Below are positions 26,291 to 31,776 of a DNA stretch of 64,000 nucleotides, piece after piece. How positions within the stretch are numbered: position 1 is the stretch's first letter; every line of letters begins with the position of its first letter. A program made the position numbers and the translations under genes. Origin of the DNA: Metallosphaera tengchongensis (GTDB taxonomy: Archaea; Thermoproteota; Thermoprotei_A; Sulfolobales; Sulfolobaceae); the NCBI RefSeq assembly GCF_013343295.1, contig NZ_CP049074.1:539501-603500 (forward strand), in the 5' to 3' direction. The notes under the pieces are model-generated. The model was given only the letters and a program-made list of their open reading frames with translations, did not search any database and was not told where the DNA came from.

Positions 26291-26428
26291 ATACTAGTAG
26301 TCTAAAACCTCGTCCAACAGTCTCTTGTACCCTTTAACGAGGAATGGGATTATCCCTTCTAACTACTTTACACGTCAAAGGGATAGAGGGAGATAAACAT
26401 AAATATGCAATTTCTCAAAACCATAATT

Positions 26429-26504
26429 GCGGCCGTAGTCTAGCCTGGATTAGGACGCTGGCCTTCCAAGCCAGAAGTCCCGGGTTCAAATCCCGGCGGT
26501 CGCA
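26429..26504 (+). tRNA. tRNA-Gly (anticodon UCC)
   Basis: Acceptor GCGGCCG pairs with CGGTCGC (one G-U) and the discriminator is A at 26504. The anticodon stem is CTGGC/GCCAG around loop CTTCCAA, giving anticodon TCC for glycine GGA codons. The T arm is CCGGG-TTCAAAT-CCCGG. No intron. The 3' half is the attachment site of an integrated element: its last 44 bases plus one are repeated exactly at 31732-31776, and insertion left the tRNA intact. Confidence 0.96.
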
Positions 26505-26505
26505 T
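26461..26505 (+). repeat. attL: 45-base core inside tRNA-Gly
   Basis: Begins GCCTTCCAAGCC and ends CGGCGGTCGCAT. It spans from the anticodon loop to one base past the discriminator, and is identical to 31732-31776. Sequence diverges immediately on both sides. Confidence 0.95.
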
Positions 26506-26940
26506 GCGGGGGATACCCCCGCACCCCCACTGCTATTCTTCAGTTTTAAGTATGATTCGACTACGTCGACTAAGGGACCGACGTAAGTTTCCTTTACGTC
26601 ACCGCCCACATTCTCTAGCTTATAGACGTAATACTTCCCTTTGATCTGACGTATAATGTAGTCGCCATATTTATAACGCGTCTTCTCTCTCGTCATTTTT
26701 ACGCCCCATATTACGGTTACCAAAACGCGTTTATAAGCACTGGTAACACGTAAAAAGTTACGGGGTCTCGCGTTGATTTGAAAGTAGGCGGTAAAAGTTC
26801 CTCGCTAGAGACAGAAATACTAGTAACTCGCGGTACACTGGGGAGTATACTCTAGACACGACGACAGTACCTACGCGGTATTACTCTGCTAAGAGTAAAC
26901 CGGGGAGTAAACTCCGAGCGGAGGGACGAAAAAACTGGCC

Positions 26941-29529
26941 CTAAGTGTAGGCCAGGGTCACACGTGTTGTACCTACGCGATGGGACTGACGTACTCCTCT
27001 AGACCGTTCTACCGTCGCTCTCTCACACGCGTCAATGTCGTCGCCCACGCACGAGAATATACCTACTAGCCTGGCCAAGTCGTCGTTCCTTATCCTCAGC
27101 CTGTGTATTGCCGACGTCTTCACGGGTACCATCTTCATCTCTCTCGATATTTCCTCATGGCCTCTAACATACTGTCCCTCACCTTTTTGCACTCCTCCTC
27201 CGTCGCCTGACACGGCATTCGCCTTACCGCGTCCTCGGTCAGACCCTCGAAAAAAGTCCTTATCAGTGAGTACTTCGCCGTTCTGCGTCTTTATCCTAAT
27301 GACGTCGTTACCGCCGTTACCTCTGTCGTTGTCCTCAGTATCACCACCGCCAGTCTCGCCCTCGACGTAGTCTAGTATACCGCGACCTAGCTTTGTCAGC
27401 GACCACACGAACGCCTTGCCCGGCTTATCGCTATCGAGTAGGCCCTTCCGTTCTAAGCCCCTCAAGACCTTGAGTACGTAGTCCTTCTTGTGTTCTCTCG
27501 CTAACGTCATTACGTCGTCGGTCTTGGGCGGGTCCGCCTCGCCCCTGTCCATTTTCGCCCTCTCCGCGTCCCTAACGTAGCGCAAGTACTCAACGTCCCT
27601 CTCTGTGAGCCCCAACGCGTCGAACAGTACCTCGTTGTAGAACTCGGACATTACTTCGTTATAGTCGCTAATGTCGGCCACGGCCTTGAGCTTTAACGCA
27701 CTGTGGACCCTCACAAGTACCATAATCTGCGAGGAAGCCCTCGTTACTACGCCGTAGTCGCCCAAGACGTTGTACTTCTCCCTCGCGGACTGTTTTATCG
27801 CGTTGTTTACCTCTTCGCTTAGCCTGACCTGTTTCGGCATCCTAGAGAGGAAACACGCGATTACCGCCTTGACCTCAAACGGGTACTCGAGGTCGCCTTC
27901 TCTCTCGCCCATTTTGCCCACGGCTTCGCCGATATCTACCGTCTTCGTGTTGACGTAGGCCTTGAAGAACCTGTTCTCTATCTGCGCCTTCACTGCGTTA
28001 GTGACGTCTATCACCGACGTCGTTATGAACACTGGCTTGTACTTGACCTTAACGACGCGGGTAGTCAGTTGGCCGTCTTCGCCTTTCTCGACCGTCCCCG
28101 TCATTACTTGGCCCTCGGTCATGAGCTCGCGCATGTAGTTAATGTCCTGGCCGTCTATCTGCTCTATGAATATGATAGGCGGGTAGTACTCGGTGTTGTA
28201 GCCGAGGAAGTTCTGGCTCAGCCTAGAGAACGGGGCTACTACGTCGTCTGGGAACTGGAAGAGTATACTCTTGACGGCGGTAGATTTACCTGCACCGGTC
28301 CCTCCGATTAGCATTAAGTGAAGCCCGGTCATGCCGTATACCGGCTTGAGGAACGCCGAGAACGCCGAGTATACCGTCAACTCCCTCTGCTTCCCGTAGC
28401 CGTGTACGTACTTTTCCGAGTTGCGTAGCATGAAGCCGATAATGTCCTTCTCCGCCTCTCTGTACAGGTCGGGGAAATGAGACATGACGTACTCGCACAC
28501 TGGCGTCTCTTCTCCGGCGTATCCCTCTTTGACCGCCTTTACCGCTTCCAACACTGCCTTCTTTGACGGGTGACTGTCCGTCTGCTTAGCGATTAGGCCC
28601 GCTATCTTATCACAATTACCGTCGCACTTGTATTCCTTGTCCTTATACTTAATTGTTATATTGTACTTAGGCACCTCAGTGACGTAAAATGCTACGTCGC
28701 GGTCTTCGCTACGGAACTCGGTCCTTAGCGTAGGCACGTAACTGACGACCGAACCGCACACTTCGACGGTAGTCCCGACTTTCTCGTCGTTAACGTTTAT
28801 GCACTTGACGTTCTCGTTATTGTCCTTGGCATTAGCGTTACCATTAACGCCCTCGCTCTTCTCGGATTTCTCGCTTTCCAGGTTGTCTTTATTCAACGTT
28901 TTGTCCCGGAGGGGTACCGTAGGACCCGTAGAACCCGTAGATTTTCGCTTTTGTTGCGCGATAAAGTTGCTATTCTTCGGGTACTGACCCCCCGTTGAAC
29001 CCGTAGATTTTCCACTTTTTTCTGGAAAAACGCGATTTTCTACGGGTTCTACGGCTTCTACGGTACCCTTTTGGGACAAACGTTCAAAATCTTTCGCTTT
29101 CTGTTCAACTTTTTGTGTTCTGTTACCGTCGTTATCCCCCTTCTGTTGGCCTCCACGCGTTCCCGCTCTCTCCGCGTCTTCTGCGTCGCCTCCCTTACGC
29201 GCCTTATGCCCCGCGACGTCTATTACTGCGAGTCCGTCACTGCGCTTAACTACTACGTTACCGGGCCTACACGCTTTGACGTCTTCCTCTTTCACGTTGA
29301 GGTACACGAGGTAGTCGCGTAAGTCCTTAGCGTCGTAGGTCTTCCCCTCTTTCGCGTCGTAGAACTCGCCAGATATTGGCCTTATCCTCACGCGGTAGCT
29401 ATACTTAGTCTTCTCTGGCCCAGACAAGACGCGGAAGGTAGCGTAGTCCCTAGCGTAGACGTACTTGACTTCATTCGCGTTAGCCTTATTACCTCTGTCG
29501 CGCTTAGAGTTATTTGACCTGTCCACCAC
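26941..29529 (-). CDS. Large plasmid replication protein (Rep) with P-loop ATPase domain
   Basis: An 862-residue protein starting at GTG with a GAGGTG ribosome-binding site seven bases upstream (29537-29542). Residues 1-110 form a small unrecognised domain. About 115-230 is a low-complexity charged linker with KSTGSTG repeats. The ATPase follows: Walker A IGGTGAGKST near 407-417, Walker B IIFIEQID near 451-458, then RELMTEGQVMTGTVEKG and a sensor-like ITTS, a layout recalling MCM/SF3 helicases. About 660-730 is a winged helix. I see no PrimPol domain such as that of pRN1 RepA. RepA-MCM proteins of Sulfolobus plasmids are the nearest idea. Confidence 0.7.
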   Translation of the reverse strand: MVDRSNNSKRDRGNKANANEVKYVYARDYATFRVLSGPEKTKYSYRVRIRPISGEFYDAKEGKTYDAKDLRDYLVYLNVKEEDVKACRPGNVVVKRSDGLAVIDVAGHKARKGGDAEDAERAGTRGGQQKGDNDGNRTQKVEQKAKDFERLSQKGTVEAVEPVENRVFPEKSGKSTGSTGGQYPKNSNFIAQQKRKSTGSTGPTVPLRDKTLNKDNLESEKSEKSEGVNGNANAKDNNENVKCINVNDEKVGTTVEVCGSVVSYVPTLRTEFRSEDRDVAFYVTEVPKYNITIKYKDKEYKCDGNCDKIAGLIAKQTDSHPSKKAVLEAVKAVKEGYAGEETPVCEYVMSHFPDLYREAEKDIIGFMLRNSEKYVHGYGKQRELTVYSAFSAFLKPVYGMTGLHLMLIGGTGAGKSTAVKSILFQFPDDVVAPFSRLSQNFLGYNTEYYPPIIFIEQIDGQDINYMRELMTEGQVMTGTVEKGEDGQLTTRVVKVKYKPVFITTSVIDVTNAVKAQIENRFFKAYVNTKTVDIGEAVGKMGEREGDLEYPFEVKAVIACFLSRMPKQVRLSEEVNNAIKQSAREKYNVLGDYGVVTRASSQIMVLVRVHSALKLKAVADISDYNEVMSEFYNEVLFDALGLTERDVEYLRYVRDAERAKMDRGEADPPKTDDVMTLAREHKKDYVLKVLRGLERKGLLDSDKPGKAFVWSLTKLGRGILDYVEGETGGGDTEDNDRGNGGNDVIRIKTQNGEVLTDKDFFRGSDRGRGKANAVSGDGGGVQKGEGQYVRGHEEISREMKMVPVKTSAIHRLRIRNDDLARLVGIFSCVGDDIDACERATVERSRGVRQSHRVGTTRVTLAYT

Positions 29530-29546: not shown

Positions 29547-29858
29547 TTACTCGTCATCGGCTACCGCGTTGACTACTACGTCGACCTTCTTCACTCCCTT
29601 TAGCCTGTCGCTGTTCTTCACTGGGACCATTATCGCGGGCCTGCCTTTAGTGTGGGTCACCTCGACGCCCCACACGCTCAACGTCTTACCGTCTGGTAGT
29701 ACTAGGGTCACGTTTAGCGTCTTACCTACTAACTCCTTTACTACGCGCCACGGTAGTGCTACCCCGTAGTACTCCTTCCCCTTGTGGCTAGAGTGCAAAA
29801 AAACCGAACGGTTAGGTATCTTGTATAGGACTTTTTGTTCAGTTGTTTTTGTGCTCAT
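29547..29858 (-). CDS. Small basic element protein cotranscribed with Rep
   Basis: A 103-residue protein, all beta in appearance: GVALPWRVVKELVGKTLNVTLVLPDGKTLSVWGVEV then PAIMVPVKNS. The first part recalls an AbrB-like swapped-hairpin (YGVALPWRVVKEL is like 'vtLPkelrekL'), but this is a guess. It is not a CopG ribbon-helix-helix protein, which occupies the same place upstream of RepA in pRN plasmids. It begins the operon, is leaderless behind a TATA box, and ends 17 bases before the Rep GTG. Confidence 0.65.
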   Translation of the reverse strand: MSTKTTEQKVLYKIPNRSVFLHSSHKGKEYYGVALPWRVVKELVGKTLNVTLVLPDGKTLSVWGVEVTHTKGRPAIMVPVKNSDRLKGVKKVDVVVNAVADDE

Positions 29859-29876
29859 CGATTAAGAAATGCGTAA

Positions 29877-29887
29877 GCTTATATACT
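29877..29887 (-). promoter_or_regulatory. Promoter of the element's rep operon
   Basis: On the minus strand AGTATATAAGC is centred about 25 bases before the ATG at 29858. It is one of the strongest TATA boxes in the window. Confidence 0.65.
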
Positions 29888-30301
29888 CCGCAAGGGGACC
29901 CTTTTTATTTTTTTCTGTCCCGCGCCCCTCTTTTCCCTTCACCGGCGCCTTGGCGTGGGTGACGTAATAAGCGCGCACGTGTCTACTGGGGAGTGGAAGG
30001 GCGAGTAGGCGACAGACGTGTAACCCGCAGAGAAAGGCGAGGGGTCAGTACGCGTAGCGAGTAGCGCGGGGTGAAGAGTAGTAGCGCGACAGACCGGGCG
30101 GGGTAAAGACAGAGAGAAAGAGAGTAGCGCGCGGGGAGCGGGAAAGAGAGACAGAAAGAAAGAGAGAGCGGGGTCTGGGGTCTGGACTTGAACCCCAGAA
30201 ATAGGACTTGTGACCTGAACCCGTGGCCCGAGTTTTTTGGCTTTTTGTTTTTTGGCGGGTTTTTTGGCAGTTTGGCAGTTTGGGGGGCGGGGGCTGAAGA
30301 C

Positions 30302-30383
30302 GTAAGCAAATATATGCAATCGTACGCAATGTCGTAGCAATACCGTAGCAAATCTATGCAATAGACAGCAGACCTATGCAAAT
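30302..30383 (+). repeat. Helically phased iteron-like repeats
   Basis: Near-repeats of TATGCAAT occur at about 30313 (TATGCAAT), 30323 (TACGCAAT), 30334 (GTAGCAAT), 30345 (GTAGCAAAT), 30355 (TATGCAAT) and 30375 (TATGCAAAT), with a weaker GTAAGCAAAT at 30302. The spacing of 10-11 bases, or 20 for one gap, keeps them on one face of the helix. Such arrays bind plasmid initiators. Confidence 0.55.
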
Positions 30384-30387
30384 CTTC

Positions 30388-30410
30388 GCATAAAAAATGC
30401 CATTTTATGC
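30388..30410. promoter_or_regulatory. Inverted repeat, candidate operator
   Basis: GCATAAAA and TTTTATGC form an exact inverted repeat separated by seven bases. It ends 40 bases upstream of the TATA box of the winged-helix gene and directly follows the iteron-like array. It may be a binding site for that regulator or for Rep. Confidence 0.45.
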
Positions 30411-30486
30411 CTTTCGTAGGTATTAGATACTTTTCGTGGGCATTAAAAGCAAAATAAAAGCTTACTATATTCTTTAATGAGATAGT

Positions 30487-30852
30487 ATGAGCTCGGAAGG
30501 TATTGAAAGGCAAAAGAAGGCAAAGAAGGCCAAAGACGGGACTATAGCTTTAGCACTGCCACAGTACGCTGTAGGTATTAAGGGGAGGGTTGAGACTACG
30601 GCGCTACAGGTACTGAGGGAACGCGAGTTCGCGACAGAGAAGGAACTACTACTCGAGATCTTGACGAGGGACGAAAAGGCGCAGGAGTACTACATGCAGA
30701 AGAAGGACTTACGCTATTTCAGGGCCGTACTGTGGAAGATGGCGAAGAAGGGGGTAGTAAAGAAGGTCAAGATGGTAGGCAACGATAAGGTCAAGTTCTA
30801 CTGCCTACCAGAGACGTTACAGAAGTACAAGGACTACGTCGTTAAGCACTGA
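30487..30852 (+). CDS. Winged-helix DNA-binding protein of the integrated element
   Basis: A 121-residue basic protein. A lysine-rich N-terminal tail (RQKKAKKAKDG) is followed by a winged-helix-like domain: TTALQVLREREFATEKELLLEIL, then LRYFRAVLWKMAKKGVVKKVKMVGNDKVKFYCL, where recognition helix and wing can be seen. It is transcribed away from the rep operon with its own TATA box (AAAATAAAAG at 30451-30460). Probably a copy-number or transcription regulator. Not a CopG or PlrA homologue. Confidence 0.7.
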   Translation: MSSEGIERQKKAKKAKDGTIALALPQYAVGIKGRVETTALQVLREREFATEKELLLEILTRDEKAQEYYMQKKDLRYFRAVLWKMAKKGVVKKVKMVGNDKVKFYCLPETLQKYKDYVVKH

Positions 30853-30876: not shown

Positions 30877-30916
30877 CATTTTGTTTCATTTTACTTCATT
30901 TTGTTCCATTTTGCGC
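30877..30916 (+). repeat. Four tandem 10-base repeats at a convergent gene junction
   Basis: CATTTTGTTT, CATTTTACTT, CATTTTGTTC and CATTTTGCGC follow each other with an exact 10-base period. They lie between the ends of the winged-helix gene and the integrase fragment and overlap the last codons of the latter. T-rich runs could terminate plus-strand transcription; the period also suits a protein-binding array. Confidence 0.6.
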
Positions 30917-31760
30917 CACTGTCTACTCCCCGGTGTACTGTGGTCGCGTCTACGTCTACCAACCCCTCGCCCTTGAGCCACTCCGCGTACTTCTTGTACC
31001 ACTCCTTCGCTATGCCGAAGAGCGAGATATAGTGTTGCGTTAACACGCGCGTAGGTTTCCTACCCTGTATGAAGTCTATGACGTCAAACGGTATACCTAG
31101 CATGGCCATCTGCGTCGAAACGAACTTCCTGAAGTACTTTATGGCGACTGCGTCCTTACGTCTCTCAAAGTCGTGTATAGCGTAACGCGAGATATCTATT
31201 TTCGTTAACGGCGTGACGTGGAAGACGTAGAAGACGCCCTTATATCCACGGGTCCATGAGAGAGGGTAGTAACAGACGCCGTTTTCGCATATATCGCGTT
31301 CAGGCTCACTTGACGCTTTCAACAGTTCGCTAAGCCTCGCCCCGCTCTCTAGGGCGGTCTTATAGACATAATAGACGTTATCGCTATACTCCTTCGCTAA
31401 TGAGAGCGTTCTCTTTATCTCTTCTAGAGTTGGCACATACAAATCGGGGTTTGTACGTTTTATCTTAACAACGCTTAATATCTTATCTCTGAAGTCCTCG
31501 CTGATGACGCCCTGCTCAGCCAAGAACTTAGCGAACAGCCTTATAGCCTTCCTGTCGTTATTACTATCAGAGTATGATAATAACCCCGATACGTAGCTCT
31601 TCGCCGTGGCCTCTGATATTTTGCGTCTGTCCAGAAGCCACCCGTAAAATGCCTTCACGTTACCGTCTGACGCGTACTGGCGTAAATTGGTAACTAACGC
31701 TACTTTACGCCTCTCAAAAACGTCTTCCTGCGCCTTCCAAGCCAGAAGTCCCGGGTTCAA
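30891..31760 (-). pseudogene. int(C): C-terminal fragment of split SSV1-type tyrosine integrase
   Basis: About 289 codons from the attachment core. The first residues NPGLLAWKA are encoded by the tRNA repeat; [22 protein letters not shown] then follows closely the SSV1 integrase core-binding region. Catalytic-domain landmarks: [12 protein letters not shown] (first arginine), [25 protein letters not shown], and the C-terminal [25 protein letters not shown] with the nucleophilic tyrosine. Without its own promoter and start it is silent while integrated, as in SSV viruses. Excision would rebuild the gene. Confidence 0.92.
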
Positions 31761-31776
31761 ATCCCGGCGGTCGCAT
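31732..31776 (+). repeat. attR: duplicated 3' half of tRNA-Gly
   Basis: Exact second copy of the 45-base core; not a functional tRNA because the D arm and 5' acceptor strand are missing. It also encodes the first residues of the C-terminal integrase fragment. Confidence 0.95.

Follow-up and report, generated by a model that had tools for sequence, protein, structure and literature searches.

A helically phased repeat array paired with a winged-helix gene in an integrated Sulfolobaceae plasmid: a possible replication-origin cassette

Introduction

The question raised by this locus is what a run of short repeats, spaced by about one turn of the DNA helix and placed between two divergent genes, is for. 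The stretch analyzed here, which we call the window, is 64 kb of the Metallosphaera tengchongensis genome (NZ_CP049074.1, positions 539,501 to 603,500; coordinates below count from its first letter). The host is a Sulfolobaceae archaeon, and inside the window lies a 5,271-bp SSV-type integrated plasmid (26461-31731) whose gene content is only an integrase gene (int), a rep gene, a 103-amino-acid (aa) open reading frame (ORF) and a gene for a winged helix-turn-helix (wHTH) protein. An earlier reading of the bare sequence, the original prediction, proposed the DNA between the rep and wHTH genes as a candidate replication origin with phased iterons. We find that the repeat array is real and part of a conserved cassette. 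A wHTH-iteron cassette serving as an origin, or initiator-binding site, is our best reading of it, which we put at somewhat under an even chance. The two features on which the argument turns are the following.

30302 to 30405, plus strand: helically phased array of 9-10 GCAAT-type repeats, between the divergent rep and wHTH genes
30487 to 30852, plus strand: wHTH protein of 121 aa, proposed binder of the array, supported by homologues and a winged-helix model

The repeat array

Nine GCA-cored copies start at 30306, 30316, 30326, 30337, 30348, 30358, 30368, 30378 and 30388, with steps of 10, 10, 11, 11, 10, 10, 10 and 10 bp, and a weaker tenth copy stands at 30399. The phase of 10-11 bases given in the original prediction is thereby borne out, while its count of six or seven repeats was too low. 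By itself, TATGCAAT is not enriched across the window (28 matches vs 28.2 expected). In helical-phase contrast, the array ranks first of the 12,778 segments of 110 bp taken from the 64 kb, at 56 vs 28 for the best elsewhere; its motif-chain fit reaches z = 9.1 over shuffles; and a pattern for two adjacent repeats has a single occurrence in the 2.18-Mb genome, at the array.

The predicted intrinsic bend of the array lies at the 98.5th percentile, as calculated with dinucleotide wedge values. Intrinsic curvature was considered as the conserved property and rejected: the arrays of pSOG2 and pTC1, and also those of pYN01 and G192, are not curved. That predicted curvature is not conserved points to protein binding, and not DNA shape, as the conserved property.

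The protein that goes with the array

Beside the array are encoded the wHTH protein and, on the other side of the intergenic region, Rep and a small ORF.

26941 to 29529, minus strand: Rep, putative helicase of 862 aa, of pSSVi/fusellovirus type by protein similarity
29547 to 29858, minus strand: 103-aa ORF in the same orientation as Rep, with a similar 97-aa ORF in the Sulfolobus sp. A20 element

The repeats could be iterons for the Rep helicase that the plasmid itself encodes, as the array and Rep meet in one intergenic region and a AAGCTTAC...TTCTT box is common to the rep and wHTH promoters. However, the array is missing beside the closest Rep and is present in many plasmids with an unrelated Rep or none (PMC4390865). 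That closest Rep, with 53% identity among 214 genomes of the order, belongs to an integrated element of Sulfolobus sp. A20, in which the integrase and the small ORF stand in the same order, without a wHTH gene and without a phased array, whereas every intact cassette we found has an adjoining wHTH gene. Because the element with the closest Rep lacks both the wHTH gene and the array, we assign the array to the wHTH protein and not to Rep. The array follows the wHTH gene, and the Rep-iteron explanation was discarded on this ground as very improbable. The protein that binds the array is most likely the wHTH protein, for which we consider the array, with good confidence, to be the cognate binding platform. 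At the array's place, the A20 element (L041:5846-6300) has long repeats with CGGGGGTTATACTGAAAAACTATAGC, about 146 bp apart; these are apparently a different cassette swapped in beside the conserved Rep.

The AlphaFold model of the wHTH protein is a winged helix, with a predicted local distance difference test score (pLDDT) of about 87-93 over residues 31-90, helices at residues 31-45, 51-61, 63-72 and 76-87, and wing strands at 92-95 and 102-105; its structure matches are PadR/MecI/MarR-like folds. Homologues are encoded by pRN2, pSOG1, pSOG2, pKEF9, pYN01, pBEU9E1, pHGQ25, pTC1 and several chromosomes. Identity to family members is 28-38%, with E values to relatives of 1e-17 to 1e-22 in the single-protein search and of 1.1e-43 in a profile search whose profile included the window protein. 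Searches of Pfam, NCBIfam and PDB sequences with the protein gave no real family, the viral contigs searched gave no relative of it, and a DNA-level search of plasmids gave no match. The homologue in pTC1 has 142 residues and, judged by this length, is very probably the ORF142 of that plasmid. In annotated conjugative plasmids, a convergent type IV secretion system (T4SS)-type ATPase gene shares the 4-32 bp at its 3' end with the wHTH gene, a conserved tail-to-tail arrangement exemplified by L062:12952-12983.

The structure search also brings in plasmid partition. TubR is at rank 25 of the Foldseek list for the wHTH protein; it falls outside the 50 VIA-align rows, where its absence is uninformative. 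In a partition site of the TubR-tubC or ParR-parC style, the array would be the centromere and the wHTH protein its binder and autorepressor. The layout of tubC and parC is closely alike: there too, direct repeats in tandem precede the operon that encodes the centromere-binding protein (PMC5016525), a small DNA-binding protein which in the case of TubR is a winged helix. The minimal replicon of pRN1 lacks the cassette, as would be expected of a stability locus. In contrast to TubRC and ParRC systems, the 5.3-kb element has no motor NTPase gene of the TubZ or ParM kind, and pTC1 has the cassette yet encodes no Par-like proteins (PMC4390865). We regard partition as unlikely.

Less likely again is a role confined to transcription, in which the array would serve as a long operator for autoregulation of the wHTH promoter and would take no part in replication or transfer. 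The array precedes the wHTH promoter wherever the cassette is intact, and for Stf76, the wHTH protein of pSSVx, binding to two sites in the promoter of its own gene is described (PMC4027180). A repressor would nevertheless need far less than nine to ten phased sites at a distance from the TATA-like element, together with a conserved G-run landmark and several hundred bp of purine tract.

The genes around the cassette allow for another function, that of a DNA-processing site of Sulfolobus conjugation, of which pRN2 and the window plasmid would carry a copy for mobilization by resident conjugative plasmids. A gene for a large T4SS-type ATPase faces the wHTH gene, tail to tail, in the annotated conjugative plasmids; several of these plasmids are without a recognized relaxase (PMC4390865); and two small plasmids with a Rep of their own carry the cassette as an extra. 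The case for such a transfer origin is one of position, and we found no mapped transfer origin of these plasmids in the literature; we hold this reading to be improbable.

Conservation of phase and turnover of motif

At the wHTH-homologue loci examined, a long purine-rich stretch is followed, usually, by a G-run that ends in GGGGGTATAGAGATGAAA, then by about 100 bp and then by the promoter. A phased array is found upstream of nearly all wHTH homologues in pRN2 and the Sulfolobus conjugative plasmids. When the roughly 100 bp before the promoter were pooled from 12 divergent wHTH loci, 3-mer coincidences peaked at lags of 10 (z 7.2), 11 (8.6), 21 (11.8), 31-33 (4-5.5) and 42 (9.6), that is, only near whole helical turns, which gives a 10.5-bp period. 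The signal is little altered after omitting the window locus. Among the controls, the purine tract gives at most a weak 42-bp signal and coding sequence gives codon-related lags.

The repeated word differs from locus to locus: GCAAT in the window, CATTgaATA in pSOG2, AAACTAT in pHGQ25, AACC in G187, and CGCTTAT in both G202 and G188. Motif distance tracks the distance between recognition helices once the remainder of the protein is controlled for (partial r 0.28, p 0.008, with the tree not modelled), a result that is suggestive only of motif and recognition helix varying together.

The cassette can also be found by its landmark. When the 214 genomes were searched for GGGGTATAGANATGAAA independently of any protein sequence, 11 sites were recovered, every one of them in Sulfolobaceae, against 0 for the reversed control. 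Several lead to wHTH-like genes whose divergence had kept them out of the first search, and these genes too are preceded by phased arrays, built on another motif (L070, L071, L072). Two, on two chromosomes (L073:1501, L076:1501), are apparently decayed cassettes in which the wHTH frame is truncated or missing. Matches to GGGGTATAGANATGAAA in viral contigs had no phased array where examined.

A replication-origin reading and its tests

What would such a conserved cassette do in replication? The parts of the noncoding region that bear on this question are as follows.

30020 to 30190, plus strand: purine-rich tract, 75% purine, far longer in most relatives
30282 to 30301, plus strand: G-run block GGGGGGCGGGGGCTGAAGAC, at the place where relatives have the conserved GGGGGTATAGAGATGAAA
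30411 to 30490, no strand assigned: least stable 80-bp segment of the whole element, a candidate unwinding element, which includes the wHTH promoter

The closest published counterpart is section B, the putative origin of Sulfolobus conjugative plasmids (pKEF9, pARN3, pING1, pSOG1/2, pTC1), for which PMC4390865 describes a conserved TCTATACCCCC (the complement of GGGGGTATAGA). The two share their architecture: a long purine-rich noncoding region, a G-run block, and a 10.5-bp array upstream of a homologous wHTH gene. In the window, the region upstream of the wHTH gene is noncoding, the strand upstream of the array is 70-82% purine from -500 to -300 relative to the wHTH start, and the phased array is present, whereas the conserved block TCTATACCCCC / GGGGGTATAGA is absent; pTC1 is likewise described as being without the canonical block (PMC4390865). 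Unlike section B plasmids, the window element is a 5.3-kb Rep-bearing integrated plasmid without conjugation genes, with a short purine tract and a degenerate GGGGGTATAGA block. Neither the helical phase nor the link to the wHTH gene is mentioned in the cited portion of PMC4390865, and Greve et al. 2004 may already cover part of this. In PMC4390865, the pTC1 origin is placed beside ORF142 by Z-curve and GC skew, and the pSOG and pTC plasmids are said to be without RepA, with an unidentified initiator assumed.

Based on these findings, we propose the following mechanism for a single cassette made up of the array (30302-30405) and the wHTH gene (30487-30852). The wHTH protein would most likely occupy a GCA-cored site at each turn of the helix, which would line up nine or ten protomers on one face of about 100 bp as a cooperative filament. 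We infer that this filament would most likely mark the plasmid replication origin and open it, unwinding the AT-rich 80 bp next to the array for the Rep helicase or, in relatives without Rep, for host MCM. The filament would also control the wHTH promoter, which lies inside the AT-rich stretch. The original prediction had placed initiator sites beside an unwinding region, and the phased sites do adjoin the least stable 80 bp of the element; the region is a putative origin. The adjacent AT-rich element expected of an iteron origin is thus found at 30411-30490, confounded by the promoter there, and in four conjugative-type plasmids the 80 bp beside the array are among the top 0.01-1.5% least stable. 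Taken as a whole, the origin reading is plausible; that the array is used for replication initiation has, in our estimate, not quite an even chance. We are more tentative about a wider proposal, that in Sulfolobales plasmids the wHTH gene and its array make up an exchangeable initiator-origin cassette, in which a single-domain wHTH protein would load once per turn, its recognition helix and the ten-copy site would co-evolve, and the protein would be the missing initiator of conjugative plasmids without RepA.

Bacterial theta iteron origins, such as those of RepE and pi, are alike in having repeats on one helical face, winged-helix binders and AT-rich DNA alongside (PMC4980987). Their iterons, however, are 17-22 bp long and are bound by Rep proteins with two winged-helix domains, while the unit here is about 10.5 bp and the window protein is one wHTH domain with no detectable homology to those proteins. 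The nearer relative pRN2 (NC_002101) has a wHTH homologue (WP_176580415, 36%) preceded by 0.85 kb of purine-rich DNA with a phased array that is weak, but differs in its primase-type Rep and in that its presumed origin is a separate stem-loop (PMC4234260). The Rep family is shared with pSSVi and the A20 element, the latter also resembling the window plasmid in its SSV-type integration and the small ORF beside Rep; the differences are that no wHTH relative was detected in either and that A20 has the different, longer repeats described above.

Several observations weigh against a replication role. Besides the cassette, pRN2 has a 97-bp stem-loop of its own that resembles the origin mapped in pRN1, a plasmid whose minimal replicon is without the cassette (PMC4234260); the A20 element also lacks the cassette, and pSSVi gave no wHTH relative. 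In pRN2, the 80-bp segment next to the array is not exceptional in stability (7.8%), and the low-stability DNA contains a promoter, which is AT-rich anyway. For pRN2, pTC1, pYN01, pSOG1 and G186, the motif-chain fit is weak singly (z 0.3-1.8), and because single fits stay under 2, these arrays rest on the pooled signal. The canonical GGGGTATAGANATGAAA is absent from the window and from this genome, with a degenerate GGGGGCTGAAGAC in its place, and we found no published binding or replication experiment on the cassette in the literature. GC skew, which had been suggested as a check on the free circle, gives no help either. Its signal in the 5.3-kb circle comes largely from the local purine tract, and removing the noncoding tract shifts one extreme; the extremes of pTC1 also move once its own noncoding tract is removed, and those of pSOG2 and pRT2 lie away from the cassette. 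Because removing the noncoding tract moves the extremes, skew evidence is circular; we rejected it as evidence for an origin, and the published GC-skew evidence for the pTC1 origin is confounded.

The conserved pair of wHTH gene and one-per-turn array singles out one protein and one 100-bp site, and both can be tested in existing pRN2-based vectors. The wHTH protein is in this way a candidate for the initiator of Sulfolobus conjugative plasmids without RepA, and a fixed 10.5-bp phase with a changing motif would make a good natural system for the study of protein-DNA co-evolution.

Other features of the intergenic region

29862 to 29890, minus strand: rep-operon promoter with a AAGCTTAC...TTCTTAAT box, similar to the wHTH promoter
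29941 to 29949, plus strand: ACCGGCGCC, with GGCGAGTAGGCG at 30000, rep-proximal motifs common to the G198 element (L042)
30174 to 30199, plus strand: hairpin TCTGGGGT/ACCCCAGA with 8-nt arms
30229 to 30283, plus strand: T tracts and TTTGGCAG tandem, with no counterpart seen in relatives
30388 to 30410, no strand assigned: inverted repeat of 8 bp, exact, at the array's distal end

All of the smaller elements named in the original prediction are present: the purine tract, the hairpin (arms at 30174-30181 and 30192-30199), the T-tract clusters (about 30233-30265), the TTTGGCAG tandem repeat (2.6 copies, 30263-30283) and the inverted repeat GCATAAAA/TTTTATGC (30388-30395 and 30403-30410). The region was also rightly called noncoding. 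Three minus-strand ORFs of 94-176 aa cross it, and none of the three has a tblastn match in any fetched locus; rejected as genes, they are probably a by-product of purine-rich DNA. The suggestion of an RNA-control element gained no structural support: the plus strand from 30020 to 30300 folds no better than shuffles (z 0.13) and the Rfam matches are tRNAs only, and we set aside both a structured RNA and antisense control.

A AAGCTTAC...TTCTT(T)AAT box occurs with the same spacing at the rep-operon promoter (29862-29890, minus strand) and the wHTH promoter (30452-30476, plus strand), which suggests co-regulation by one factor. A motif scan for wHTH sites placed none of its top sites at the rep promoter. 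ACCGGCGCC and GGCGAGTAGGCG, about 50 bp apart, recur in the G198 element (29941-30011 here, L042:6182-6244 there) and are candidate Rep sites; the G198 element has the same gene order, and its ORF divergent from the rep operon was missed by the wHTH-family searches.

The integrated plasmid

26461 to 26505, plus strand: attL, 45-bp repeat at the 3' end of tRNA-Gly(TCC) (tRNA at 26428-26505 by ARAGORN and Rfam)
31732 to 31776, plus strand: attR, 45-bp repeat, an exact match to attL
26415 to 26723, minus strand: split integrase, N-terminal part (PF07935 SSV1_ORF_D-335, E 1.5e-29)
30891 to 31760, minus strand: split integrase, C-terminal part (PF16795 archaeal phage integrase, E 3e-56; phrog_5127, E 1e-91)

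The element is bounded by the exact 45-bp direct repeat, of which one copy is the end of the tRNA-Gly gene. When the att ends are joined, the two gene halves give a single open integrase frame of 394 codons; since restoration of the integrase frame across the att joint is the hallmark of SSV-type integration, the element, with its tRNA att repeat and an integrase gene split through integration, is an integrated plasmid of this type. Rep is 33.6% identical to the RepA-like protein of pSSVi and 29-33% to SSV proteins. The 97-aa ORF of A20 has the same position as the 103-aa ORF, and their opening residues match. Rep residues 1 to about 100 are fused here and match a separate upstream ORF in the relatives in A20 (L041) and G198 (L042). 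The same genome holds a second, decayed rep copy (L045, G000:C1:1100873-1101560), about 40-52% identical and with several stops, a relic of an earlier integration.
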